Shown: one piece after another, positions 36,584 to 59,966 of the stretch
Numbering within the stretch: position 1 is the stretch's first letter
Layout: every line of letters begins with the position of its first letter
Source: Natrinema caseinilyticum
GTDB lineage: Archaea > Halobacteriota > Halobacteria > Halobacteriales > Natrialbaceae
DNA length: 64,000 nucleotides
NCBI RefSeq assembly: GCF_024227435.1
Contig: NZ_CP100446.1
Location: forward strand, 1-64,000
Reading direction: 5' to 3'
The notes under the pieces: generated by a model
Databases searched by the model: none
Seen by the model: only the letters and a program-made list of their open reading frames with translations
What the model was told of the DNA's origin: nothing
Program-made: the position numbers and the translations under genes

Positions 36584-37780
36584 ATGGTTGTCGAGATCGA
36601 CGATATCGAACGCGTCGCAGTGGTCGGTGCGGGACAGATGGGACGTGGAATCGGAGCCGTCGCCGCGTTAGCGGGGTACGAGACGACCATCACCGACGTC
36701 GACGAATCGCAGTTGGCGGACGCGACCGAGCGGATCGAGTGGTCCTACCGGAAACGGGTCGAGAGCGGTAACGCGACCGAGGCGGAAACGGCCGCCGCAC
36801 TCGAGCGCCTCACCCTCACGTCGGACTTCGAAGCGGCGGTCGGTGATGCGGACTTCGTCACCGAGGCGGCGGTCGAGCAGCAGCCGGTCAAAAAAGAAAT
36901 CTTCGCGGATCTCGACGCGGCAACGCCCGACGATGCGATCCTCGCGACGAACACGTCCGGGCTGAGCGTCACCGAACTCGCCGAGTCGACCGACCGTCCC
37001 GAACAGGTCATCGGAACGCACTGGTTCAACCCGCCGATGCTGATGGAGCTCGTGGAGGTAATCATGACCGACCACACGCCAGCATCGGTCGCCGATACCG
37101 CGGAGGAGCTCGTCGAGTCGTTCGGGAAAACGTCGATCCGGGTTCGAACCGACATCGCGAAGTTCATCGTCAACCGACTGATGCGGGCGTTCAGCGAGGG
37201 GCCCGCCTGGATGGTCTCTCGCGGCGAACACACGGTCGAAGAGATCGACTCGGCGATGAAGTTCAAAGAGGGGTTCCCGATGGGTCCGTTCGAACTGGCG
37301 GACTACACGGGCTCCATCCAGATCCGGATCGAGGCCGAGGAGGATCTCCTGACGGACGACCGACCGCTGGCCTTCGAGTCGGAGATCAGCCCGATCGTCC
37401 ACCAGCTCTACGAGAAAGGGCGGTTCGGTCGGAAGTCCGGTGCGGGGTATTACGACTATTCGGACCAGGACGAACCGACGATCCCCGTCGACGCGGGACA
37501 GGGGTTCGACACACTGCTCGTCTGGGCACCGATGGTCAACGAAGCGGCGAAGCTCGTCCAGAACGACGTCGCGAGCGTCGAGGACGTCGACACCGGCGCT
37601 CGACTCGGCGGCAACTGGCCGATGGGGCCGCTCGAGAAAGCAGACGAGGTCGGCGCCGACGTCGTTCTCCGGAAGCTCACGGCCGTCGCCAGCCGTCACG
37701 AGGACACGGACATGCTCGCCGAGACGCTCCCGTGTGAGCTACTGGTTCGGAAGGCGAAGCAGGGAGCAACGTTCTATTGA
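36584..37780 (+). CDS. 3-hydroxyacyl-CoA dehydrogenase
   Basis: 398 aa from ATG at 36584 (the frame extends to 36515 without homology). NAD-binding VVGAGQMGRGIGAVAALAGY at about 11-30; NTSGLSVTELA and IGTHWFNPPMLMELVEVI carry the catalytic Ser/Asn/His; the C-terminal dimer domain follows, duplicated as in two-domain forms (GFPMGPFELADYTG and GGNWPMGPLEKADEVG). Oxidises 3-hydroxyacyl-CoA in beta-oxidation. Confidence 0.92.
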   Translation: MVVEIDDIERVAVVGAGQMGRGIGAVAALAGYETTITDVDESQLADATERIEWSYRKRVESGNATEAETAAALERLTLTSDFEAAVGDADFVTEAAVEQQPVKKEIFADLDAATPDDAILATNTSGLSVTELAESTDRPEQVIGTHWFNPPMLMELVEVIMTDHTPASVADTAEELVESFGKTSIRVRTDIAKFIVNRLMRAFSEGPAWMVSRGEHTVEEIDSAMKFKEGFPMGPFELADYTGSIQIRIEAEEDLLTDDRPLAFESEISPIVHQLYEKGRFGRKSGAGYYDYSDQDEPTIPVDAGQGFDTLLVWAPMVNEAAKLVQNDVASVEDVDTGARLGGNWPMGPLEKADEVGADVVLRKLTAVASRHEDTDMLAETLPCELLVRKAKQGATFY

Positions 37781-37891: not shown

Positions 37892-38308
37892 TTAGTCCCC
37901 CACGCGAAGCGTGAACCGTGGCAGTGCACGGCCGCTGCCGGTGTCGTCGAAGACGACCTCGACCCTGCTATCGACCTCCACCCGTTCGATGTCGCAATCG
38001 ACGATGTTCGTGAGCATTCGCGGTCCTTCTTTGAGTTCGACGTAGGCGAGCACGTAGGGAGTCGCATCGGCGTACTCCTCGCTCGCTCGACGCGTCACCG
38101 TGTAACTGTAGACCGTTCCTCTCCCGGACGCTTCCGTCCAGTCGGTGTTCGTACTCGCGCACTCGGGGCACTGTCGGCGTGGGTAGTGATAGACGCGCTT
38201 GCAGTCGGCACACGATCGGAGGAGGAGCCGGCCGTCCGCGGTCGCATCCCAGAACGGTTCCGTTTCGGGGTTCGTCGGCGGAACGGGTACCGGGCGCTCG
38301 CCAGTCAT
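37892..38308 (-). CDS. DUF35 Zn-ribbon/OB-fold protein, partner of thiolase-like protein
   Basis: 138 aa starting at 38308 by a 4-bp overlap (ATGA) with the thiolase-like stop. Rubredoxin-like zinc ribbon CADCKRVYHYPRRQCPECAS at about 33-52, then an OB fold (GTVYSYTVTRRA, PYVLAYVELKEGPRMLTNI). DUF35 proteins form complexes with thiolase-like aldolases (Ltp2, ChsH2) or with HMG-CoA synthase/thiolase, channelling CoA esters. Paralogue at 42710-43120. Confidence 0.9.
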   Translation of the reverse strand: MTGERPVPVPPTNPETEPFWDATADGRLLLRSCADCKRVYHYPRRQCPECASTNTDWTEASGRGTVYSYTVTRRASEEYADATPYVLAYVELKEGPRMLTNIVDCDIERVEVDSRVEVVFDDTGSGRALPRFTLRVGD

Positions 38309-39471
38309 CGGTCGGCCCCCAGGATCAGCGTCGCGGCACCCGTTCGGGTCCCGATACTGTTTCCCGTTCCGTGGGCGAGTGCAATCTCGCAATCGGGAAC
38401 CTGTACCTCGGCGTTCGCCTCGCCGCGGAGCTGTCGGACGGCCTCGATCACCTTGGTTACCCCACCGCGATTCCCCGGGTGATTCGAACAGAGGCCGCCG
38501 CCGTCGGTGTTGAACGGGAGGTCCCCGTCGGGCGCCTGTAGCGTGCCGCCCTCGACGAACTCGCCGCCCTCGCCCTTCTCGCAGAACCCGAGATCCTCGA
38601 TCGCCTCGAGGACGGTGATCGTAAAGGAGTCGTAGATCGACGCGTAGTCGATGTCGTCCGTGGTTACGCCGGCGTCGTCGAACGCCTTCGGCCCGGATTC
38701 CACCGCGCCCGTGTCCGTGAGGTCGAGGGCGCCACCGCCGTGATGTTTGATCGCGTCACCCGATCCGAGGACGGCGGGACACGGACGCGACAGATCGGAC
38801 GCGACGTCGGAACTCGCGACGACGATCGCGCCGCCGCCGTCGCTGACGACGCAGCAATCGAGCAGGTGGAGCGGGTCGCTGACGAGCGGCGAGTCGACGA
38901 CGTCCGCGACGGTGACCGGGTCCTGGAACATGGCGTGCTCGTTGTGCTGGGCGTGTTGCGAGGCCGCGACGCGGATCTCGGCGAGCTGTTCGCTCGTCGT
39001 ACCGTACTCGTGCATGTGCCGCCGTGCGGCGAGGGCGTACAGTCCGACGAACGAGAGGCCGTACGGATCCTCGAATCCCGCCTCCGGCGCGTCTGCGGGG
39101 TGGTTGCGGCGAGGGTGGCCGGGATCGTAGTCGATCGATCGCGGCCGCCCAGCGTGGGTGATGAGGACGACGTCACACCGGCCAGCGGCGATCGCCGCCG
39201 CGGCGTGTCCGACGTGAGCGACGTACGACGCACCGCCGATGTCGGTGCTGTCGACGTACGAGAGTCCCTCGAGACCGAGATAGTCGGCCAACGAAAGCAC
39301 GCCGGGTGATTCGGCCGTCACGTATCCGTCCACGTCGTCGAACGTGAGTCCGGCGTCACGAAGCGCCCCTGCGGCGACGTCGGCGTGAAGCTGTGGAGTC
39401 GACGTATCGGGTGCCTCGCGGACGGGGTGTTCGTATATCCCGGCAACTCGAGCACTAGCCTGTGTAGACAT
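38305..39471 (-). CDS. Thiolase-superfamily protein, Ltp2-like (candidate acyl-CoA retro-aldolase)
   Basis: 388 aa. Thiolase fold, but at the nucleophile loop it reads DIGGASYVAHVGHA with no cysteine, and the C-terminal CxGGG is replaced by HGTGNSIG. The segment YDSFTITVLEAIEDLGF followed by KGEGGEFVEGG and GGGLCSNHPGNRGG closely follows the Ltp2-type steroid side-chain aldolases as I recall them. True thiolysis is therefore unlikely. Coupled by 4-bp overlap to a DUF35 gene. Near-identical nucleotide blocks are shared with the inverted paralogue at 41538-42713. Confidence 0.85.
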   Translation of the reverse strand: MSTQASARVAGIYEHPVREAPDTSTPQLHADVAAGALRDAGLTFDDVDGYVTAESPGVLSLADYLGLEGLSYVDSTDIGGASYVAHVGHAAAAIAAGRCDVVLITHAGRPRSIDYDPGHPRRNHPADAPEAGFEDPYGLSFVGLYALAARRHMHEYGTTSEQLAEIRVAASQHAQHNEHAMFQDPVTVADVVDSPLVSDPLHLLDCCVVSDGGGAIVVASSDVASDLSRPCPAVLGSGDAIKHHGGGALDLTDTGAVESGPKAFDDAGVTTDDIDYASIYDSFTITVLEAIEDLGFCEKGEGGEFVEGGTLQAPDGDLPFNTDGGGLCSNHPGNRGGVTKVIEAVRQLRGEANAEVQVPDCEIALAHGTGNSIGTRTGAATLILGADR

Positions 39472-39539
39472 GAGGGGTAATCATCTCCGCTGACTCGTTC
39501 GTGGTGCCACCATCTGAATCTATCCCCTCGAGCAGGCGC

Positions 39540-39830
39540 TTAGTAACCGAAGTCGAGAGCCTGGTTGGCGACGACGGCTCCGAACCGAGCGCACAGAGAA
39601 CGGACAGGACGCCGAACGGATGGGCCATCCGTACAGGTCCGTGAGAAGCCCGACACCGATCGACCCCGTAGAACCGAGGACCACGTACAGCGTTCGAACG
39701 AGTCCGAACCCGGCACCGCGCTCGGCATGGGAGAGCGCGTCGATAAAGCGAGGTTCCAGCGAGGCGAAGTGACTCGAACCGATGCCGAACAGGACGACGG
39801 CTCGGCCGTCGGTCCGGCAGTATCGGACGA
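39540..39830 (-). pseudogene. C-terminal remnant of an MFS transporter, frameshifted
   Basis: The minus strand encodes VVLFGIG..LEPRFIDALSHAERGAGFGLVRTLY followed by GLLTDLYGW, matching the end of the MFS protein at 4210-5382 (VEPRFMDNM..ERGAGFGLVRTTY, FAEAFGW). After YGW the match jumps to other frames (HPFGVLSVLCALG, then ANQALDFGY against VNWAFDLGY), so at least two frameshifts are present. About 90 residues survive; the 5' part is absent and the ketopantoate reductase gene begins there. Confidence 0.72.
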
Positions 39831-39844
39831 GCGAAAGGCGCGTC

Positions 39845-40756
39845 TCACTCGAGATAGCTGCGCTCGAGACCGCGGACGAGTTCCGTAACGAGGGCGTTGG
39901 CGGGGACGTCGACGTTTTCTGCGCGTGCGATGTCGACGAGGGCGCCGTTTATCTCGTCGATTTCCGTTTTGCGCTCGTCGAGGACGTCCTGAAGCATGCT
40001 GGATCGATGGGTCGGCCCGGATCGGCAGATATCGACGACCCGTTCCATCGGGTCCGCGTCCGGGAGGTCGATACCGACAGTCGCCGCGACCAGTTCCGCT
40101 TCGCGGACGATGCGCTCCATCACCGATCGCGGACCGTCCGTCGTGACGAGCTGACCGTTTGGCAGCCGAGTGAGGGCTGCGACGGGTTTGACGGGAAGAC
40201 TGACGAGTTGTTTCGCCCAGATCGCCCGCGTCGGATCGTCGACGCGGTCCGCAGGGAGTCCCGCAGCCGCCAGTATCCGAACGACATCCCGAGCGGTCTG
40301 GGGATCGCCACCGCCGAGTACCGACCGTCCGGCAGCCGTCTGCGTGATCTGTCCGGGACGGTCGATGCGCGCTCCCTGGTAGCTGACCCCGGCGAGCGCG
40401 CGATCGGCCCCGACGACGTCCGCGAGCTGGTCGTAGTGGCGAAGGCCGTTCTGCAACGACAGAAGGGTCGTCTCGGGTCCGATACACCCGTCGTGTTGCT
40501 CGAGCGCGTCGATCGTCTGATGGGCTTTGACGAAGACGAGGACGAGATCGGCGTCCCCCACTTCGGCCGCGTCGGTGGTTGCAGGAACGGACACGGACGT
40601 GACGCCGTCGTCGCTCTCGATTCGAATTCCGGTCCGATTCAACGAGTCGACGGTCGACTGGCGGTGGTGGATCAACCAGACGTCGTGACCGGCAGTCGCC
40701 AGGAACCCACCGTAGAGACACCCGAGCGCTCCGGCACCGATGACTGCGATCTTCAC
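39845..40756 (-). CDS. panE: 2-dehydropantoate 2-reductase (ketopantoate reductase) family
   Basis: 303 aa from GTG at 40756, where the Rossmann fold starts immediately: VKIAVIGAGALGCLYGGFLATAG. A purine-rich GGGGGAAC precedes it. An ATG-like start 67 codons upstream would add an Arg-rich leader. LLSLQNGL and the catalytic Lys in AIWAKQLVSLPVKPVAALT are present. The role could be coenzyme A biosynthesis or another 2-keto acid reduction, since PanE paralogues are common in catabolic loci. Sits between the two inverted thiolase/DUF35 modules. Confidence 0.85.
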   Translation of the reverse strand: MKIAVIGAGALGCLYGGFLATAGHDVWLIHHRQSTVDSLNRTGIRIESDDGVTSVSVPATTDAAEVGDADLVLVFVKAHQTIDALEQHDGCIGPETTLLSLQNGLRHYDQLADVVGADRALAGVSYQGARIDRPGQITQTAAGRSVLGGGDPQTARDVVRILAAAGLPADRVDDPTRAIWAKQLVSLPVKPVAALTRLPNGQLVTTDGPRSVMERIVREAELVAATVGIDLPDADPMERVVDICRSGPTHRSSMLQDVLDERKTEIDEINGALVDIARAENVDVPANALVTELVRGLERSYLE

Positions 40757-41537
40757 GGCCGTTCCCCCGCGAGACCCCGAATTGGACGCATCACGTTTCG
40801 CACTCGTCGCGGAACGGTAAATACGTTGGTCAACGCGAGCGGACGTGGAACGCGGGTGCGTCACGGCCCGTTCCCGGTTCGACGGTACCGTGAGATGGCC
40901 GCACAGGCCCGAGGATCGGGAGTCGACCGTTCGATTCTGATGAACGGTCATCAACAACCGTTCCGTATCGAGGAATTACACCGTACTACATATTTTCAGG
41001 CGTGTCTGCACGAGACGAGTCGATGAGGCGTGATAGTACGAACCACAGTGACGTGGTGTCTCGGAGTCGAACCACCCCCCGACCGAACTTACCAACCGTA
41101 TGTATGGTAAATTGGGAACGAGACTCGGGTGAGGATTTGTGATACCCGGGCACGTAGATTCCCTATGAAGGAACGGGAGACGTTACGCGGGTTTCGGCTG
41201 AAAACGATGATTACGTCCGTCTCAGAGAAGAATACGGTCTTGGGGAGATGGGGGAGATCGTTCCGCCATACGGAACCCAGATCCACGGGCGAAAATACCG
41301 CATCCACCAATCAACGACGCTCGAGACGGCCTAACGGGCGGGTCTTCGAGTTACCGCGTGACGTGAACCCGCCGGCCCGAACGGGAGATCGCGAAACGAA
41401 TGTACGGTAATGCCGGACGACGTTGGCTTCGCAGAGCGACGGGGCGCTCGAGACGACTGATATGTCGCGAGGGTCCGCTTCGTCGAAAGAGACGTGGAAG
41501 CAAAGGTTTACGATAACCGAAACACTCTGAGCGTGTG
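40757..41537. other. Large divergent intergenic region
   Basis: 781 bp without a convincing gene. An inverted repeat TTACCA-N10-TGGTAA is at 41089-41110. The promoter of the rightward thiolase-like gene is at its right end. Short frames of 70-110 codons exist on both strands but have no recognisable features. Confidence 0.5.
41507..41516 (+). promoter_or_regulatory. TATA-like box for the thiolase-like/DUF35 operon
   Basis: TTTACGATAA, centred about 27 bp before the ATG at 41538. Confidence 0.45.
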
Positions 41538-42713
41538 ATGGCAGGACGCGAACCAGCATACATAGCTGGGGCCTTCGAACATCCGACACGTGAAGCACCG
41601 AACAAATCGACGATGCAGTTACATGCGGAAGTCGCAAAAGGCGCACTCGCCGACGCGGGACTGACGAAAGACGACGTCAACGGTCTCTTTACGGCCGGCG
41701 TTCCCGAATATCGATCCGGTCTGTCTCCGCTCGTTATCGCCGACTATCTCGGGATGGACGCGTCGTACGTGGATACGACCGACTACGGCGGTTCGTCGTA
41801 CGTCGCCCACGTCGGTCACGCGGTCAGCGCAATCCGGAACGGGAAGTGCGACGTCGCACTCGTCACGCTCGCCGGCCGGCCGCGCTCTCGCGGCCAGGCG
41901 ACGGGGTCCGGGGCACGAGAGGTCCGAACCGTCCAGGACAGCTTCGAACGCATTTACGGTGCGACGAATATCACGATGTACGGCATGGCCGCACGACGGC
42001 ACATGCACGAGTACGGCACGACGAGCGAACAGCTCGCCGAGATTCGCGTCGCGGCCTCGCAACACGCCCAGCACAACGAGCACGCGATGTTCCAGGACCC
42101 GGTCACCGTCGCGGACGTCGTCGAATCGCGGGTCGTGGCGGATCCGCTCCACCTGCTCGACTGCTGCGTGATCTCGGACGGCGGCGGGGCGTTGGTGCTC
42201 GTCTCCGAGGACGTTCGCGAAGACATAGACCGGGAAGCCGTCGAAGTACTCGGTCACGGCGAAGCACCCTCACACCACGACGCCGGACGGATCGACGTCA
42301 CGCGTACCGGTGCCGAGTCGTCCGGTGAACGCGCCTTCGCGGAAGCCGGTCTCGGTCCCGAGGACATCGACTACGCGTCGATCTACGACTCCTTTACGAT
42401 CACCGTCCTCGAGGCGATCGAGGATCTCGGGTTCTGCGAGAAGGGCGAGGGCGGCGAGTTCGTCGAGGGCGGCACGCTACAGGCGCCCGACGGGGACCTC
42501 CCGTTCAACACCGACGGCGGTGGCCTCTGCTCGAATCATCCCGCAAACAGGGGCGGGATGACCAAAGTGATCGAGGCGGTCCGGCAGCTCCGCGGCGAGG
42601 CGAATCCCGAAGTGCAAGTCGACGCCGACGTCGCACTCGCCCACGGAACCGGCGGAAGTATCGCGACCCGTCACGGTGCTGCGACCGTCGTTCTCGGGAG
42701 GGAAGGCCGATGA
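41538..42713 (+). CDS. Thiolase-superfamily protein, Ltp2-like (candidate acyl-CoA retro-aldolase), second copy
   Basis: 391 aa from ATG at 41538 (GTG immediately before is an alternative). The nucleophile loop is DYGGSSYVAHVGHA, again without Cys; the C-terminal motif is HGTGGSIATRHG. The conserved YDSFTITVLEAIEDLGF and KGEGGEFVEGG segments match the copy at 38305-39471, in places almost base for base. The DUF35 gene overlaps its stop by 4 bp. Predicted to act with that protein on a beta-hydroxyacyl- or beta-ketoacyl-CoA; substrate unknown. Confidence 0.85.
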   Translation: MAGREPAYIAGAFEHPTREAPNKSTMQLHAEVAKGALADAGLTKDDVNGLFTAGVPEYRSGLSPLVIADYLGMDASYVDTTDYGGSSYVAHVGHAVSAIRNGKCDVALVTLAGRPRSRGQATGSGAREVRTVQDSFERIYGATNITMYGMAARRHMHEYGTTSEQLAEIRVAASQHAQHNEHAMFQDPVTVADVVESRVVADPLHLLDCCVISDGGGALVLVSEDVREDIDREAVEVLGHGEAPSHHDAGRIDVTRTGAESSGERAFAEAGLGPEDIDYASIYDSFTITVLEAIEDLGFCEKGEGGEFVEGGTLQAPDGDLPFNTDGGGLCSNHPANRGGMTKVIEAVRQLRGEANPEVQVDADVALAHGTGGSIATRHGAATVVLGREGR

Positions 42714-43120
42714 CCTGGGAACCGCGTCCCGTTCCCGAAGTCAACCCGGAAACCGAGCGCTACTGGCAGGCCGCCGCGAGTGGCGACCTTCTCGTCCGGG
42801 AGTGTCCCGATTGCGGGCTGGTGTATCACTACCCGCGATCGCTCTGTCCCGACTGTTTCAGCGAGAACGTCGAGTGGCGCGAGACGACGGGTCGCGGAGA
42901 GGTGTACTCGTACTCGACCGCGCGAACGATGAGCGGCTGGCCGGAGGACGACCTCCCGCTCGTCGTCGCCTACGTGGAACTCGACGAGGGGCCGCGACTC
43001 ATGACGAACGTCGATGCCGATCCCGAGGACGTCGCCGTCGGAACGCGCGTCGAAGTCCAGTTCGTCGACACCGAAGACGAGGACGTCTCGATACCCGTCT
43101 TCGCCCCAGTGGAGGACTGA
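42710..43120 (+). CDS. DUF35 Zn-ribbon/OB-fold protein, second copy
   Basis: 136 aa, ATGA overlap with the thiolase-like gene. Zinc ribbon CPDCGLVYHYPRSLCPDCFS at about 28-47, then an OB fold (GEVYSYSTARTM, LVVAYVELDEGPRLMTNV). Paralogue of 37892-38308, with the same gene order and overlap. Confidence 0.9.
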   Translation: MTWEPRPVPEVNPETERYWQAAASGDLLVRECPDCGLVYHYPRSLCPDCFSENVEWRETTGRGEVYSYSTARTMSGWPEDDLPLVVAYVELDEGPRLMTNVDADPEDVAVGTRVEVQFVDTEDEDVSIPVFAPVED

Positions 43121-44218: not shown

Positions 44219-44689
44219 ATGCCGACACAAACACGCGGGAAGTACTACGAGGAGTTAGACGTCGGAGACGTCTACGAACACCGGCCCGGTCGGACCGTTA
44301 CCGAATTCGACAACACCCTGTGGTCGTTGCTGTCAGTAAACCTGCAGCCCCTCCACCTCGACGCCCACTTCTCGGAGGGAAGCGAATTCGGGCAACGACT
44401 GGTCAACAGCATGTTCACGCTCTCGACGGTCGTCGGGTTGCAGGTACACGACCTCACGCTCGGAACGACGGTCGGGAATCTCGGATTCGAGGAGATATCG
44501 TTCCCGCACCCCGTATTCATCGGGGATACGCTCTACGCGGAGACGGAGATCGTCGACAAGCGACTGAGCGAGTCGCGAGAGGACGACGGTATCGTGACCT
44601 TCGAGCACCGAGGCTACAATCAGGACGGTGAACTCGTCTGTGAGTGTACGCGGATCGGCCTCATGCACACCGAACCGGAGGACGAGTAA
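44219..44689 (+). CDS. MaoC-like hotdog hydratase
   Basis: 156 aa single-hotdog protein: KYYEELDVGDVYEHRPGRTVTEFDN, then NLQPLHLDAHFSEGSEFGQRLVNSM (about 38-62), which keeps the catalytic-region His and Asp. These resemble mesaconyl-/itaconyl-CoA-type hydratases more than R-enoyl-CoA hydratases. The lyase gene starts 2 bp after its stop, so the pair acts together. A MaoC plus CitE-like pair occurs in mycobacterial and pseudomonad itaconate degradation, giving one hypothesis for the pathway. Confidence 0.82.
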   Translation: MPTQTRGKYYEELDVGDVYEHRPGRTVTEFDNTLWSLLSVNLQPLHLDAHFSEGSEFGQRLVNSMFTLSTVVGLQVHDLTLGTTVGNLGFEEISFPHPVFIGDTLYAETEIVDKRLSESREDDGIVTFEHRGYNQDGELVCECTRIGLMHTEPEDE

Positions 44690-44691
44690 CG

Positions 44692-45579
44692 ATGCGTCCG
44701 ATCCGTTCGATTCTTTACATTCCGGCGAACAACGAAGACTGGGTACACGAAGCGCCCGAGAAGTACGACGCGGACGCGTTCATCTTCGATCTCGAGGATT
44801 CCGTTCCGCCGAGCGAAAAAGAGGAGGCACGCGAAATCGTCGCCAATGCGTACGATCGGTGGGACACGGACAAAGCGATCACCGTTCGTATCAACGGCCC
44901 GGAAACGGGGCTGTTCGAAGCGGACCTCGACGCGGTCGTCCACGACCGACTGGACGCCGTGGTCGTCCCGAAACTCCCGCGAACGGAGGACGTAACGCGC
45001 ACGGATCACGTCCTCTCGTATCTCGAGTCGCGGCGTGGAATCGAGAACCGGACCGAGATTATCGCGCTCCCCGAAACGCCCCAGGGATTCTACAACGCCC
45101 ACGAACTGTGTAAAGCGAGCGATCGCGTCGCTGCGATCGTGGGCGGGACCAGCCGCGGTGCCGACGTCGAACGGGCGCTCGGCTGGGAGTGGACCCGAGA
45201 AGGAACCGAGAAGCTACACATGCTGTCGAAGGTCCTTCTCGACGGCAAGGCGGCGGGCGTCGAGCAATTTTTCGGCGGCGCGTGGACGAACGTCGAGGAC
45301 GTCGAGGGGCTCAGAGAGGAAGCCACGCGGCTCCGATCGCTCGGATACACCGGATACCAGGTAATCCATCCGAGCCACGTCGAGCCCGTCAACGACATTT
45401 TCACGCCCGACGAGGACGACGTGGAGTTCTGGCAGCGGGTGATGGAAGAGATGGAAACGGCTGAAGTCGAGGAGTCCCGGGGTGCAGTCCGGTTCGAGGG
45501 AGAAATGATCGATATCGCCCACATAAAACGCGGTGAGGATATTCTGGAGCGGGCCCGCGCGTTCGATATGGTCGACTGA
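44692..45579 (+). CDS. CitE-like HpcH/HpaI lyase (malyl-/citramalyl-CoA lyase type)
   Basis: 295 aa. RSILYIPANNEDW, FIFDLEDSVPPSEKEEAR (Mg-binding acidic residues), VVVPKLPRTED, ALPETPQG and GYTGYQVIHPSHVEPVNDIF are all CitE-superfamily motifs. The family cleaves beta-hydroxyacyl-CoA such as malyl-, beta-methylmalyl- or citramalyl-CoA into acetyl- or propionyl-CoA and a 2-oxo acid. Directly downstream of a MaoC hydratase. Confidence 0.87.
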   Translation: MRPIRSILYIPANNEDWVHEAPEKYDADAFIFDLEDSVPPSEKEEAREIVANAYDRWDTDKAITVRINGPETGLFEADLDAVVHDRLDAVVVPKLPRTEDVTRTDHVLSYLESRRGIENRTEIIALPETPQGFYNAHELCKASDRVAAIVGGTSRGADVERALGWEWTREGTEKLHMLSKVLLDGKAAGVEQFFGGAWTNVEDVEGLREEATRLRSLGYTGYQVIHPSHVEPVNDIFTPDEDDVEFWQRVMEEMETAEVEESRGAVRFEGEMIDIAHIKRGEDILERARAFDMVD

Positions 45580-48415: not shown

Positions 48416-49642
48416 TCAGTGATCGCCCGTTTCGGCGACCGCACCCGCCTCGAGGAGCGTCTCGATCTCGGCGTCGGAATAGCCGAGTTCGTCGAGCAGT
48501 TCCGCCGTGTTCGCGCCGAGGTACGGCGCGGGCGTCTTCTCGTCGGGGCTGAACCGCTCGAAGTCGAGCGGGAGGTTGATCTGCCGAACGGACTCACCCG
48601 AACGTCGATCGCCGTCCCCGCCGACGTCGATCTCGTCGAACAGGCCTCGCGCTTCGAGGTGTGGATCAGCGAAGAGGTCCTCGTAGTCGTTGACGGGCCC
48701 CGCCGGGACGTCGTACTCCTCGAACCGCTCGAGCCACGCCGCCCGCGGCCGCTCGGCCAATCGGTCGGCGAACGCGTCGACGATCTCCGTCCGGAGGGAG
48801 TCGGGAAGCTCACCGTTCGGGCCGATGTGGTCGTCCGCGTATTCGGGGAGTTCCAGCGCCTCGCAGAGGTTTTCCCAGAAGTGCTCCTCGAGCGCGCCGA
48901 GCGTGATCGCCTTCCCGTCGCCGGTCTCGTAAACCCGGTAGCCGGGGTGGGATCCGGTCAGGGTCGTCCGGCCGCGACGCGGGATTTCGCCGCGTCCCTC
49001 GTACCGGTCCAGATAGACCATCGAGAACGACGCGACGGCGTCGGTCATGCTGACGTCGATGTGGTCGCCACCGGAGCCGCCGCGAACGCCGGCGAGGGCG
49101 GTCGCAATGGCGAAGGCGGCGTACATGCCCCCGGCAAAGTCCGCGATCGGGTATCCCGGAATGGTCGGCGGTCCGTCTCGGTCGCCCGTAAGCCCCAGCA
49201 ATCCGGCGACTCCGATGTAGTTGAGGTCGTGGCCGGATCGAGCGACGTACGGTCCGTCCTGGCCGTAGCCGGATATCGAACAGTAGATCACGTCTTCGTT
49301 CACGTCGCGAACGTCGTCGTATCCGACGCCGAGTCTATCGACGACGCCCGGACGAAAGGACTCGACGACGACGTCGGCGGTCCGTGCGAGATCGAGAAAG
49401 GCGTCCCGTCCGCCCTCGTGCTTGAGATTTATCGCGATGCTCTTTTTGTTTCGATGGCGGGTCAACAGCGTGAAACTGCGGCCGTCGATCGACGGTTCGC
49501 GGGGTCGTACCGGATCGCCGGTACCCGGCCGTTCGACTTTGATAACCTCGGCGCCGAGGTCGGCGAGCATCGTGGTCGCGTAGGGTCCCGGAAGCAGTTG
49601 CGTGAGATCGAGGATGCGCACGCCGTCGAGAAACGGTTGCAT
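48416..49642 (-). CDS. Family-III CoA-transferase fold, alpha-methylacyl-CoA racemase-like
   Basis: 408 aa from ATG at 49642. VRILDLTQLLPGPYATTMLADLGAEVIKVE is the family N-terminus. SGHDLNY gives His138 and PIADFAGG gives Asp168, the same residue pair and the same 30-residue spacing as the catalytic His126/Asp156 of mycobacterial MCR racemase. This favours racemisation of 2-methyl-branched acyl-CoA over CoA transfer. Divergent from a second family member that lacks the His. Confidence 0.82.
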   Translation of the reverse strand: MQPFLDGVRILDLTQLLPGPYATTMLADLGAEVIKVERPGTGDPVRPREPSIDGRSFTLLTRHRNKKSIAINLKHEGGRDAFLDLARTADVVVESFRPGVVDRLGVGYDDVRDVNEDVIYCSISGYGQDGPYVARSGHDLNYIGVAGLLGLTGDRDGPPTIPGYPIADFAGGMYAAFAIATALAGVRGGSGGDHIDVSMTDAVASFSMVYLDRYEGRGEIPRRGRTTLTGSHPGYRVYETGDGKAITLGALEEHFWENLCEALELPEYADDHIGPNGELPDSLRTEIVDAFADRLAERPRAAWLERFEEYDVPAGPVNDYEDLFADPHLEARGLFDEIDVGGDGDRRSGESVRQINLPLDFERFSPDEKTPAPYLGANTAELLDELGYSDAEIETLLEAGAVAETGDH

Positions 49643-49746
49643 GCTACCACGATGCGCACCCACCGTGAAATCTATTCGGTTCGCGCGGGCGGCGGACGAA
49701 GATCGAAGCCCGAAAACGTCATTGGGGCCCGGGTTATCGTCGGTGT

Positions 49747-50934
49747 ATGGGCTTTCTGAACGGAATCGACGTGGTCGACCTGACCCAGATGGTGTCGGGG
49801 CCGGTCGCGACGATGCATCTCGGTGACATGGGTGCAGACGTGGTAAAGATCGAACGACCGGAGACCGGGGACATTTCGCGAGGCCTCCCGCCGTTCGTCG
49901 ACGGAACGAGTTCCCAGTTCGTGGCGCTCAATCGAAACAAGCGCTCCGTCGAAGTCGACCTCCGATCGGATCGGGGACAGGACCTCGTGCTCGAACTCCT
50001 CGAGGAGGCGGACGTGTTCGTCGAGAACTACAAGGCGGGAACCGTCGACGAATTCGGCCTCGACTACGACACCGTGGCGGCGAGGAATCCGGATCTCGTG
50101 TACTGTTCGATCAAGGGGTTCGCGTCCGACTCGATATACGAGGACAATCCCGCGTACGATATGGTCGCCCAGGCGATGAGCGGCACGATGAGTATCAACG
50201 GTCAACCGGACGGCCCGCCGACGTACACGTCCACTCCGATATCGGATATCGCGGCCTCCATGTACGCCGTCCAGGCGATCACCGGCGCGCTGTACGATCG
50301 AGACGTGAACGACGCTTCGGGGGAGTACATCGAAGTGTCGATGCTCAACTGCATCATGTCCTGGCTCGGGATCCGTGCGACGGCCAGCGGGGTGAAAGAC
50401 GAACCGTACCCTCGCGTCGGGAACAGACACTCGGCCGTGGCGCCGTACAAAGTGTACGAGACGGCCGACTCGTACGTCGTCGTCGCCGTCGCGAGCCAGG
50501 GGCTCTGGCCCAAGTTCTGTCGCGCGATCGATCGAGAGGACCTGATCGCCGACCCGCGATTCGAGACGAGCGCCGATCGGTCGGCGAACATGGACGCACT
50601 GTACGACATCACGGACGACATCATGCGCCAGAAAACGACGGCGGAGTGGTTCGACATCTTACAGGAACACGGCGTGCCGTCGGGCCCCGTCCGGAACACC
50701 ATCGAGGCACTCGAGGACGAGTACACCGGACAGCAGGGCCTCGTTCAGGAGCTCTCGACCGACGACTGCGACGACACGGTTCCGGTGATCCGCTATCCGG
50801 TCGACTTCGGAACGTTCGAGGCGCCGGTCACCGATCCGCGTCCGCTCGGTGCCGACACGTATCGCTCGCTGCGCGAACTCGGCTACGACGATGCCGAAAT
50901 CGAGTCGTTACGCGAGCTGGGAGTCGTCGGATAA
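49747..50934 (+). CDS. Family-III (CaiB/BaiF) CoA-transferase
   Basis: 395 aa. IDVVDLTQMVSGPVATMHLGDMGADVVKIERPETGD starts the Rossmann-like domain. At the racemase His position it has AYD (Tyr137), while Asp167 in PISDIAAS is kept, the aspartate that carries the CoA in formyl-CoA transferase-type enzymes. It probably moves CoA from succinyl- or acetyl-CoA to an organic acid such as mesaconate or itaconate. Divergent from the racemase-like gene; a MaoC-like gene follows. Confidence 0.87.
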   Translation: MGFLNGIDVVDLTQMVSGPVATMHLGDMGADVVKIERPETGDISRGLPPFVDGTSSQFVALNRNKRSVEVDLRSDRGQDLVLELLEEADVFVENYKAGTVDEFGLDYDTVAARNPDLVYCSIKGFASDSIYEDNPAYDMVAQAMSGTMSINGQPDGPPTYTSTPISDIAASMYAVQAITGALYDRDVNDASGEYIEVSMLNCIMSWLGIRATASGVKDEPYPRVGNRHSAVAPYKVYETADSYVVVAVASQGLWPKFCRAIDREDLIADPRFETSADRSANMDALYDITDDIMRQKTTAEWFDILQEHGVPSGPVRNTIEALEDEYTGQQGLVQELSTDDCDDTVPVIRYPVDFGTFEAPVTDPRPLGADTYRSLRELGYDDAEIESLRELGVVG

Positions 50935-58796: not shown

Positions 58797-59966
58797 ATGG
58801 ACTTCGAGCTCAGCGACGAGCAGAAACTAATCAGAAGCGAGATTCGGGATCTCTGTGCGCAGTTCGGCGACGAGTACTGGCGCGAAAAGGACGTACAACA
58901 CGAGTTCGGGTGGGAGTTCTACGAGGAGTTCGCCGACGGCGGCTGGTGTGGGGTCACGATCCCCGAAGAGTACGGCGGACAGGGGTACGGCGTCCAGGAG
59001 GCGAGCATCATCCAGCAGGAAATCGCCCGCTCCGGTGCGGCGATGGCCGGCACGTCGATCACGTCACACCACGTGTTCAGCGCCGCGCCGCTGGTCGAAT
59101 ACGGCTCCGACGAGCACAAAGAACGATACCTTCCGAGCATCGCAAACGGTGACGTCATGGTCTGTACCGGTGTCACGGAGCCAAATGCGGGGACGGATAC
59201 GTCACAGATCGAAACGTTCGCCGAGCGCGACGGCGACGAGTACGTCGTCAACGGCCAGAAGATATGGACCTCGAAGGCACAGGAGGCGGACGTCATCATG
59301 TTGCTCACGCGGACGCAACCGCGAGCGGAGAGCGACCGATTCGGCGGCCTCACGCTGTTTTTCACCGAGTTCAACGAGGACATGGACAGCGTGGACGTGA
59401 GCGAAATTCCGAAGGCCGGCCGCGGTGCCGCGGATTCGAACGAGGTCTGGTTCGAAGACTTCCGCGTGCCCGCCGAGGATCGGATCGGCGAGGAGGGAGC
59501 GGGATTCAAATACCTCCTCGCGTTTACGAACTCCGAGCGGATCAGCATCGCCGCGAACGCGGTCGGCATCGGCCAGGCCGCACTCGAGAAGGCCGCCGAC
59601 TACGCCCGCGAGCGCGAAGTCTTCGATAGCACGATCGGGTCCTATCAGGCGATCCAGCATCCGCTCGCGGACTCGTGGAGTAAACTGGCCCAGAACGAAC
59701 TGATGATCCGGAAAGCGGCGTGGCTGTACGACAACGGACAGAATTCGGGGCCCGAGGCGAACGCCGTCAAGCTCCGGGCGAGCGAAGACGCGATCGAGGC
59801 CTGCGAGCGCGCCGTTCGCGTCCACGGCGGGATGGGATACGCAAAGGAGTACGACGTCGAGCGCTACTGGCGCGAGGTCATGATCAACGTGATCGCCCCG
59901 ATCTCGAACGAGATGGTCAAAAACTACATCTCACAGCACGTTCTCGATCTCCCCCGCTCGTACTGA
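58797..59966 (+). CDS. Acyl-CoA dehydrogenase
   Basis: 389 aa flavoprotein: MDFELSDEQKLIRSEIRDL, VTEPNAGTDTSQIET, INGxKxWTS-like VNGQKIWTSKAQ and RVHGGMGYAKEYDVERYWRE. The usual C-terminal catalytic Glu (YEGTS) is replaced by IAPISN. Glu247 in TNSERISIAANAVGIGQ occupies the alternative position used by isovaleryl-CoA dehydrogenase, suggesting a branched-chain or alicyclic substrate. Introduces the alpha-beta double bond. Confidence 0.9.
   Translation: MDFELSDEQKLIRSEIRDLCAQFGDEYWREKDVQHEFGWEFYEEFADGGWCGVTIPEEYGGQGYGVQEASIIQQEIARSGAAMAGTSITSHHVFSAAPLVEYGSDEHKERYLPSIANGDVMVCTGVTEPNAGTDTSQIETFAERDGDEYVVNGQKIWTSKAQEADVIMLLTRTQPRAESDRFGGLTLFFTEFNEDMDSVDVSEIPKAGRGAADSNEVWFEDFRVPAEDRIGEEGAGFKYLLAFTNSERISIAANAVGIGQAALEKAADYAREREVFDSTIGSYQAIQHPLADSWSKLAQNELMIRKAAWLYDNGQNSGPEANAVKLRASEDAIEACERAVRVHGGMGYAKEYDVERYWREVMINVIAPISNEMVKNYISQHVLDLPRSY

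Follow-up and report, generated by a model that had tools for sequence, protein, structure and literature searches.

In the window analysed here, the first 64 kb (positions 1 to 64,000) of the 715-kb contig C2 (NZ_CP100446.1) of Natrinema caseinilyticum, a haloarchaeon with a genome totalling 4.77 Mb, two gene pairs each encode a thiolase-like protein without the nucleophilic cysteine of thiolases and a DUF35 protein. Each pair is probably a thiolase-fold acyl-coenzyme A (acyl-CoA) retro-aldolase and its stand-alone partner, a zinc-ribbon/OB-fold protein, serving the catabolism of a carboxylic acid other than a steroid. At the level of the protein family, the predicted aldolase function is well supported by alignment and phylogeny. 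Literature searches that paired DUF35 and aldolase with haloarchaea turned up no retro-aldolase from this group and, as far as they show, these would be the first haloarchaeal case of a Cys-less pair of the retro-aldolase type.

Thiolase-like protein A (388 amino acids; 38305..39471, reverse strand) and protein B (391 amino acids; 41538..42713, forward strand) share 70% identity, and their partners, DUF35 A (138 amino acids; 37892..38308, reverse strand) and DUF35 B (136 amino acids; 42710..43120, forward strand), share 58%. Read directly from the sequence, both junctions are ATGA overlaps, and the first-pass annotation, which had described each thiolase-like gene as overlapped by a DUF35 gene, was right in this and in the coordinates. 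According to Pfam, a C4 zinc ribbon of the form C-x2-C-x10-C-x2-C (CADC-x10-CPEC in DUF35 A, which matches PF12172 and PF01796; CPDC-x10-CPDC in DUF35 B) and an OB fold are the sole domains of both partners. The PDB chains nearest to DUF35 B are the DUF35 of ChsH2 (6ok1_B) and the DUF35 of Shy (9myr_B).

The alignment of A and B with solved relatives was checked against the numbering given for the bile-acid aldolase CtSal and the steroid aldolase TcLtp2 (PMC12329534), and every residue looked up matched. The column of the thiolase nucleophile holds Gly in A (G80, in G79-G80) and in B (G85), aligned with G89 of CtSal; across 82 aligned family members it is invariant, with Cys in 0 of 82, which bears out the absence of the cysteine reported earlier. 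The Tyr base (Y302 in CtSal, Y294 in TcLtp2) corresponds to Y280 in A and Y283 in B and is Tyr in 82 of 82 members. At the column of the CtSal acid Cys304 and TcLtp2 H296 stand Ser282 and Ser285, and at that of the TcLtp2 acid Tyr344 and CtSal Q352 stand His331 and His334. The latter column coincides with the GHP histidine of thiolases and, as A reads NHP, a GHP-type His is kept. Residues Y280, D281, S282, F283, T284, N330, H331, P332 and N177 are invariant in all 82 members; a more divergent haloarchaeal member outside this set (L123) has Gln at 331, as in CtSal. Thus A and B have Gly and Tyr in place of the Cys89-type nucleophile and HDxF His of thiolases, His331/334 and YDSF in place of the Tyr general acid (Y344) and YDHF of Ltp2 proper, and Ser282/285 in place of the Cys304 acid in the YDCY of Sal proper.

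Two of the motif assignments made earlier need correction. The second catalytic cysteine had been placed at the HGTG site; in the nearest relatives, the SCP2 and archaeal thiolases, it sits in HDCF, the equivalent here being Ser282/Ser285 of YDSF. The motifs YDSF and KGEGGEF, which had been likened to those of Ltp2, are both present, but Ltp2 itself reads YDHF and RGEAKDF, and the structural-genomics protein PDB 4u4e is a much better match. The N. caseinilyticum genome itself provides an internal control: GGxS/T is joined to YDxF in four homologues (A, B and those at C1:2739 kb and C2:71 kb) and the nucleophilic Cys to HDxx in four others. A fifth HDx paralogue (C1:73829-74935) has TSSSG at the Cys site, and is thus Cys-less, with HDMF; it groups on the thiolase side with PDB 4yzo from Sulfolobus and is possibly another non-thiolase type.

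Both proteins belong to the PRK08142 family (NCBIfam NF006010), with scores of 585 bits (A) and 581 bits (B) against a cut-off of 462. The entry states only 'thiolase domain-containing protein' as function, and a literature search on the function of PRK08142 or of PDB 4u4e found no paper. In a tree of 50 proteins, a branch with 100/100 support parted the Cys-less YDxF proteins (PRK08142, 4u4e, two paralogues from the same genome, CtSal and TcLtp2) from the thiolases. The split between aldolases and thiolases still had Shimodaira–Hasegawa-like approximate likelihood ratio test (SH-aLRT) support of 100 after the active-site columns and the tracts of gene conversion described below had been dropped. 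A second tree included IpfD, the ibuprofenyl-CoA-diol retro-aldolase, with its sequence taken from pIBU218 (accession given in PMC9195938); a plasmid thiolase of strain DC-6, tried as an IpfD candidate, was rejected as a Cys-containing thiolase. Here TcLtp2, CtSal, IpfD and PRK08142 stood opposite all thiolases across a 100/100 branch, and PRK08142 formed its own 100/100 clade, separate from Ltp2 and Sal; TbSLP and PhlC are absent from the trees. Retro-aldol cleavage is the best reading of these proteins because they group with TcLtp2, CtSal and IpfD and because their separation from the thiolases does not depend on the active-site columns. The earlier preference for a retro-aldolase over a thiolase thus gains support from the missing Cys, the Tyr in place of the HDxF His and the tree; the comparison with Ltp2 and thiolases that it had proposed set A and B apart from the proven thiolases at 100/100 and found no Cys at the aligned site.

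That A and B carry identical catalytic motifs, as had been noted, is correct, but the two are not independent observations. In A, residues about 277–331, from YDSF to NHP (approximately 38479..38643, reverse strand), have been homogenised from B, where the matching tract of this inverted paralogue lies at about 42366-42539 (forward strand). Within these codons a run of 158 nucleotides covering the catalytic segment is without difference between the genes, although over most of their length the two are only 37–77% identical in DNA. Shared codons are identical at 52 of 55 positions in the tract and at 107 of 188 outside it; these 52 identical codons are consecutive among the shared residues, and 20000 shuffles never gave a run above 31. 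A second tract, around codons 161–200, is 97% identical. Within the tract, A and B are equally close to the Natrinema gelatinilyticum orthologue of B; elsewhere A is far off, and copying therefore ran from B to A. In the tree, protein A falls outside the haloarchaeal members as well as the bacterial ones. Because of this gene conversion, the shared motifs count once.

From the residues and the neighbouring genes we infer the following route. The acid would be activated to its CoA thioester by a CaiB transferase or a ligase, oxidized to the enoyl-CoA by an acyl-CoA dehydrogenase and hydrated by a MaoC or crotonase hydratase to a β-hydroxyacyl-CoA, the Cα–Cβ bond of which would be cleaved by the thiolase-like protein with DUF35. 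Tyr280/283 would deprotonate the β-hydroxyl; bond cleavage would yield the enolate of an acyl-CoA together with an aldehyde or a ketone; and His331/334, at the place of Tyr344 in Ltp2, would protonate the enolate, releasing acetyl- or propionyl-CoA. The likely role of DUF35 is to bind to the dimer of the thiolase-like protein and to shape the substrate cleft. Among the characterised retro-aldolases, the residue after YD varies between Cys (Sal), His (Ltp2) and Ala (IpfD). As IpfD combines YDAF with a Tyr at the 331 place, the residue after YD need not be the acid, which can sit at the 331 place instead. Seen in this light, the Ser at 282 counts less against the assignment, and His331 becomes the natural candidate for the acid.

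Several points weigh against this assignment. The putative acid is neither Tyr, as in Ltp2 and IpfD, nor Cys, as in Sal. The Cys304Ser variant of CtSal is inactive (PMC12329534) and the same position is Ser in A and B, a difficulty for any mechanism with Ser282 as the acid. An AlphaFold2 model of B has a predicted local distance difference test (pLDDT) score of 86.9 and a predicted template modelling (pTM) score of 0.90, but residues 331–335, the loop with the His, fall below a pLDDT of 50. A Foldseek search with this model returned 4u4e first, Sal (9myr) second and Ltp2 (6ok1) within the top six; Foldseek and TM-scores are nearly alike for aldolases and thiolases, without separation, and because thiolases score almost equally the fold alone decides nothing between the two. 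Finally, several other haloarchaea encode, immediately ahead of the pair or close to it, a 3-hydroxyacyl-CoA dehydrogenase (HCDH) that is 72–78% identical to the one in the window (36584..37780, forward strand), company that suits a β-keto rather than a β-hydroxy substrate.

This last point leads to an alternative that we consider doubtful, namely a Cys-independent enzyme that acts on the C–C bond of a β-ketoacyl-CoA, for instance by hydrolytic or decarboxylative retro-Claisen chemistry, after the neighbouring HCDH. Three haloarchaea (L116, L118 and L119) have runs of HCDH, thiolase-like and DUF35 genes, and several more encode HCDH no further than 10 kb away; His331 occupies the column of the catalytic GHP His of thiolases; and the Cys-less TbSLP slowly decarboxylates malonyl-CoA. 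By contrast, every characterised protein that shares this side of the tree is a retro-aldolase, the Tyr base is invariant and no HCDH homologues were found near the 72 bacterial pairs. A purely retro-aldol route has no need of HCDH, which may belong to another cycle; alternatively, the pair may act Cys-free on a β-keto substrate. A thiolase proper with its nucleophile elsewhere, for example C328 (in GGGLC) or C206/C207, is very hard to credit: neither C206 nor C207 varies among the 82 members, and 80 of them have C328, but the LDCC of this region also occurs in Ltp2, with a similar QCC in a true SCP2 thiolase, C328 is Ser in 4u4e and Sal, and both the Tyr in place of the thiolase HDx His and the position in the tree stand against it.

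The first-pass annotation had recognized the arrangement of steroid side-chain retro-aldolases, and this part of it is not supported as a link to steroids. The fold and clade are shared with these enzymes, as is the DUF35 partner, and both Ltp2 and Sal are among the closest PDB matches. However, PRK08142 is a fully supported clade of its own, the DUF35 proteins are stand-alone, like IpfE, rather than fused to MaoC, and the second catalytic residue is unlike that of either Ltp2 or Sal. The model for the steroid-ring hydrolase HsaD, the only steroid marker searched, scored at best 108 bits on the genome, against a cut-off of 400, and the surroundings (MaoC, CitE, CaiB and TRAP-type genes) form a general CoA-acid island. 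A steroid role is unlikely, and it is highly improbable that A and B act as Ltp2 or Sal proper in the breakdown of sterols or bile acids by haloarchaea. It is also improbable that A and B are non-catalytic or regulatory subunits, comparable to PhlA in PhlABC. Inactive subunits of the thiolase superfamily do occur beside DUF35 proteins (PMC2954200), but no partner thiolase is encoded nearby (the flanks of the 72 bacterial members contain no other thiolase-family match), the set of active-site residues is invariant in 82 proteins, and gene conversion has kept the active-site tract of A identical to that of B.

The genes around the pairs fit the proposed retro-aldol route in several respects. Downstream of pair B, a MaoC-type hydratase resembling RipB/Ich (44219..44689, forward strand; NF038241, 145 bits, below the cut-off of 340) is a candidate supplier of β-hydroxyacyl-CoA, and shares 50–56% identity with homologues in the same operon of alphaproteobacteria. 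It is followed by a CitE/RipC-type acyl-CoA lyase (44692..45579, forward strand), and alphaproteobacteria keep the same order after the pair: in Sneathiella and its relatives the genes run acyl-CoA dehydrogenase, thiolase-like, DUF35, (CaiB), MaoC, CitE, CaiB and enoyl-CoA hydratase, and the window repeats the order thiolase-like B, DUF35 B, MaoC and CitE with one gene inserted. An acyl-CoA dehydrogenase with homologues adjoining bacterial pairs is encoded at 58797..59966 (forward strand), and two CaiB/BaiF CoA-transferases (48416-49663, reverse strand; 49747-50934, forward strand) could activate the substrate. Near the 72 bacterial members, homologues of acyl-CoA dehydrogenase, crotonase, MaoC, CaiB and CitE are concentrated within 5 kb and thinner beyond, and acyl-CoA dehydrogenase homologues within 5 kb are on the same strand as the pair by 20:1. 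To judge from the MaoC, CitE and CaiB genes nearby, the substrate might be branched or dicarboxylic, which is only a guess because the neighbours miss the equivalog cut-offs; for the same reason, naming the substrate from the NCBIfam names of the neighbours was rejected.

About 7 kb to the right of the window (C2:69.4–75 kb; L098:4599-11071) lies a run of acyl-CoA dehydrogenase, MaoC, MaoC, Cys-less thiolase-like (YDCF), DUF35, CaiB and CMD-like genes. Its thiolase-like protein carries the Sal-like residue pair, and its order is dehydrogenase–hydratase–aldolase; the run fits an igr-type order better than do pairs A and B. In L116 and L118, the HCDH–thiolase-like–DUF35 run sits among aminotransferase, ornithine-cyclodeaminase-like and enolase-superfamily genes, orthologues of which are found at 8.9–23 kb in the window without thiolase-like genes. 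Between pairs A and B lies a 2-dehydropantoate-2-reductase-like gene (39845-40756, reverse strand). The region from 26654 to 63141 is syntenic with N. gelatinilyticum NZ_CP100757.1 at 85–91% DNA identity. That copy is without seven blocks, and several of the gaps end near gene ends, among them 815 bp of a PanE-like gene (leaving 138 bp of its 3′ end) and 426 bp over the MaoC gene at 44219; this looks like serial deletion.

A search of genome contigs for the motif pattern gave 594 stretches, 570 of which encode PRK08142 relatives, and 80 were kept for analysis. In all 80, the next gene downstream encodes DUF35 and has the same orientation, and it overlaps by ATGA or GTGA in 43 of the 78 with a placeable start. 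PRK08142 is common in bacteria (the 80 are mostly from Alphaproteobacteria) and patchy in haloarchaea, where it occurs in 11 of 194 genomes and 6 of 65 genera, with two copies only in the present genome; this distribution suggests that the haloarchaeal genes were acquired by transfer from bacteria. A broader proposition, to which we give an even chance, is that PRK08142 and its 4u4e-like sister represent a third catalytic solution, with a Tyr base and a His acid, in a widespread class of non-steroid acyl-CoA aldolases that dispersed through bacteria and from there reached haloarchaea; hundreds of proteins annotated as thiolases or acetyl-CoA acetyltransferases would then be aldolases in a recurring dehydrogenase–hydratase–aldolase cassette. 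Were this so, the reaction of a large family would differ from its 'thiolase' label, and pathway predictions would change for many Alphaproteobacteria, Actinobacteria and haloarchaea. The retro-aldol cleavage of acyl-CoA, known in steroid and ibuprofen degradation, would reach archaea and ordinary organic acids, and the scaffold would gain a third general-acid solution, useful for aldolase engineering.

Among known systems, the archaeal acetoacetyl-CoA thiolase/DUF35/HMG-CoA synthase (6esq; 28% identity) shares the thiolase fold and the DUF35 partner, but retains both catalytic Cys and HDCF and falls on the opposite side of the 100/100 branch. TcLtp2–ChsH2 (6ok1; 34–35% identity) resembles the pairs in the Gly at the Cys site, the Tyr base, a catalytic residue at the 331 place and the DUF35 partner, and differs in its Tyr344 acid (His here), YDHF (YDSF here), DUF35 fused to a hydratase subunit and steroid substrate. 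CtSal–CtShy (9myr; 34–35% identity) likewise has Gly89 at the Cys site, Tyr302 as base and a DUF35 partner, with Cys304 as acid (Ser here), Gln352 (His here), DUF35 fused to MaoC and a C3H1 zinc finger in CtShy in place of the C4 ribbon of DUF35 A and B. The closest structure, the putative thiolase 4u4e of Sphaerobacter thermophilus (47–51% identity), likewise has GGSS at the Cys site, YDSF, HP at the 331 place and HGTGG, although it belongs to a sister clade outside PRK08142 and is without the CSNHPxNRGG loop of A and B. IpfD–IpfE of Rhizorhabdus wittichii pIBU218 (33–34% identity) has a Tyr at the 331 place, has largely lost the zinc cysteines of the partner and acts after a ring dioxygenase. 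The ibuprofen region of this plasmid holds a second Ltp2-like and OB-fold pair (L128:939-2503), beside CaiB and enoyl-CoA hydratase genes, that groups with TcLtp2. IpfD nevertheless shares with A and B the Gly at the Cys site, the Tyr base and a non-Cys residue (Ala) after YD; IpfE, like DUF35 A and B, is a stand-alone OB-fold/DUF35-like gene adjoining the aldolase gene; and IpfD is assigned a retro-aldol step in a non-steroid pathway (PMC9195938).

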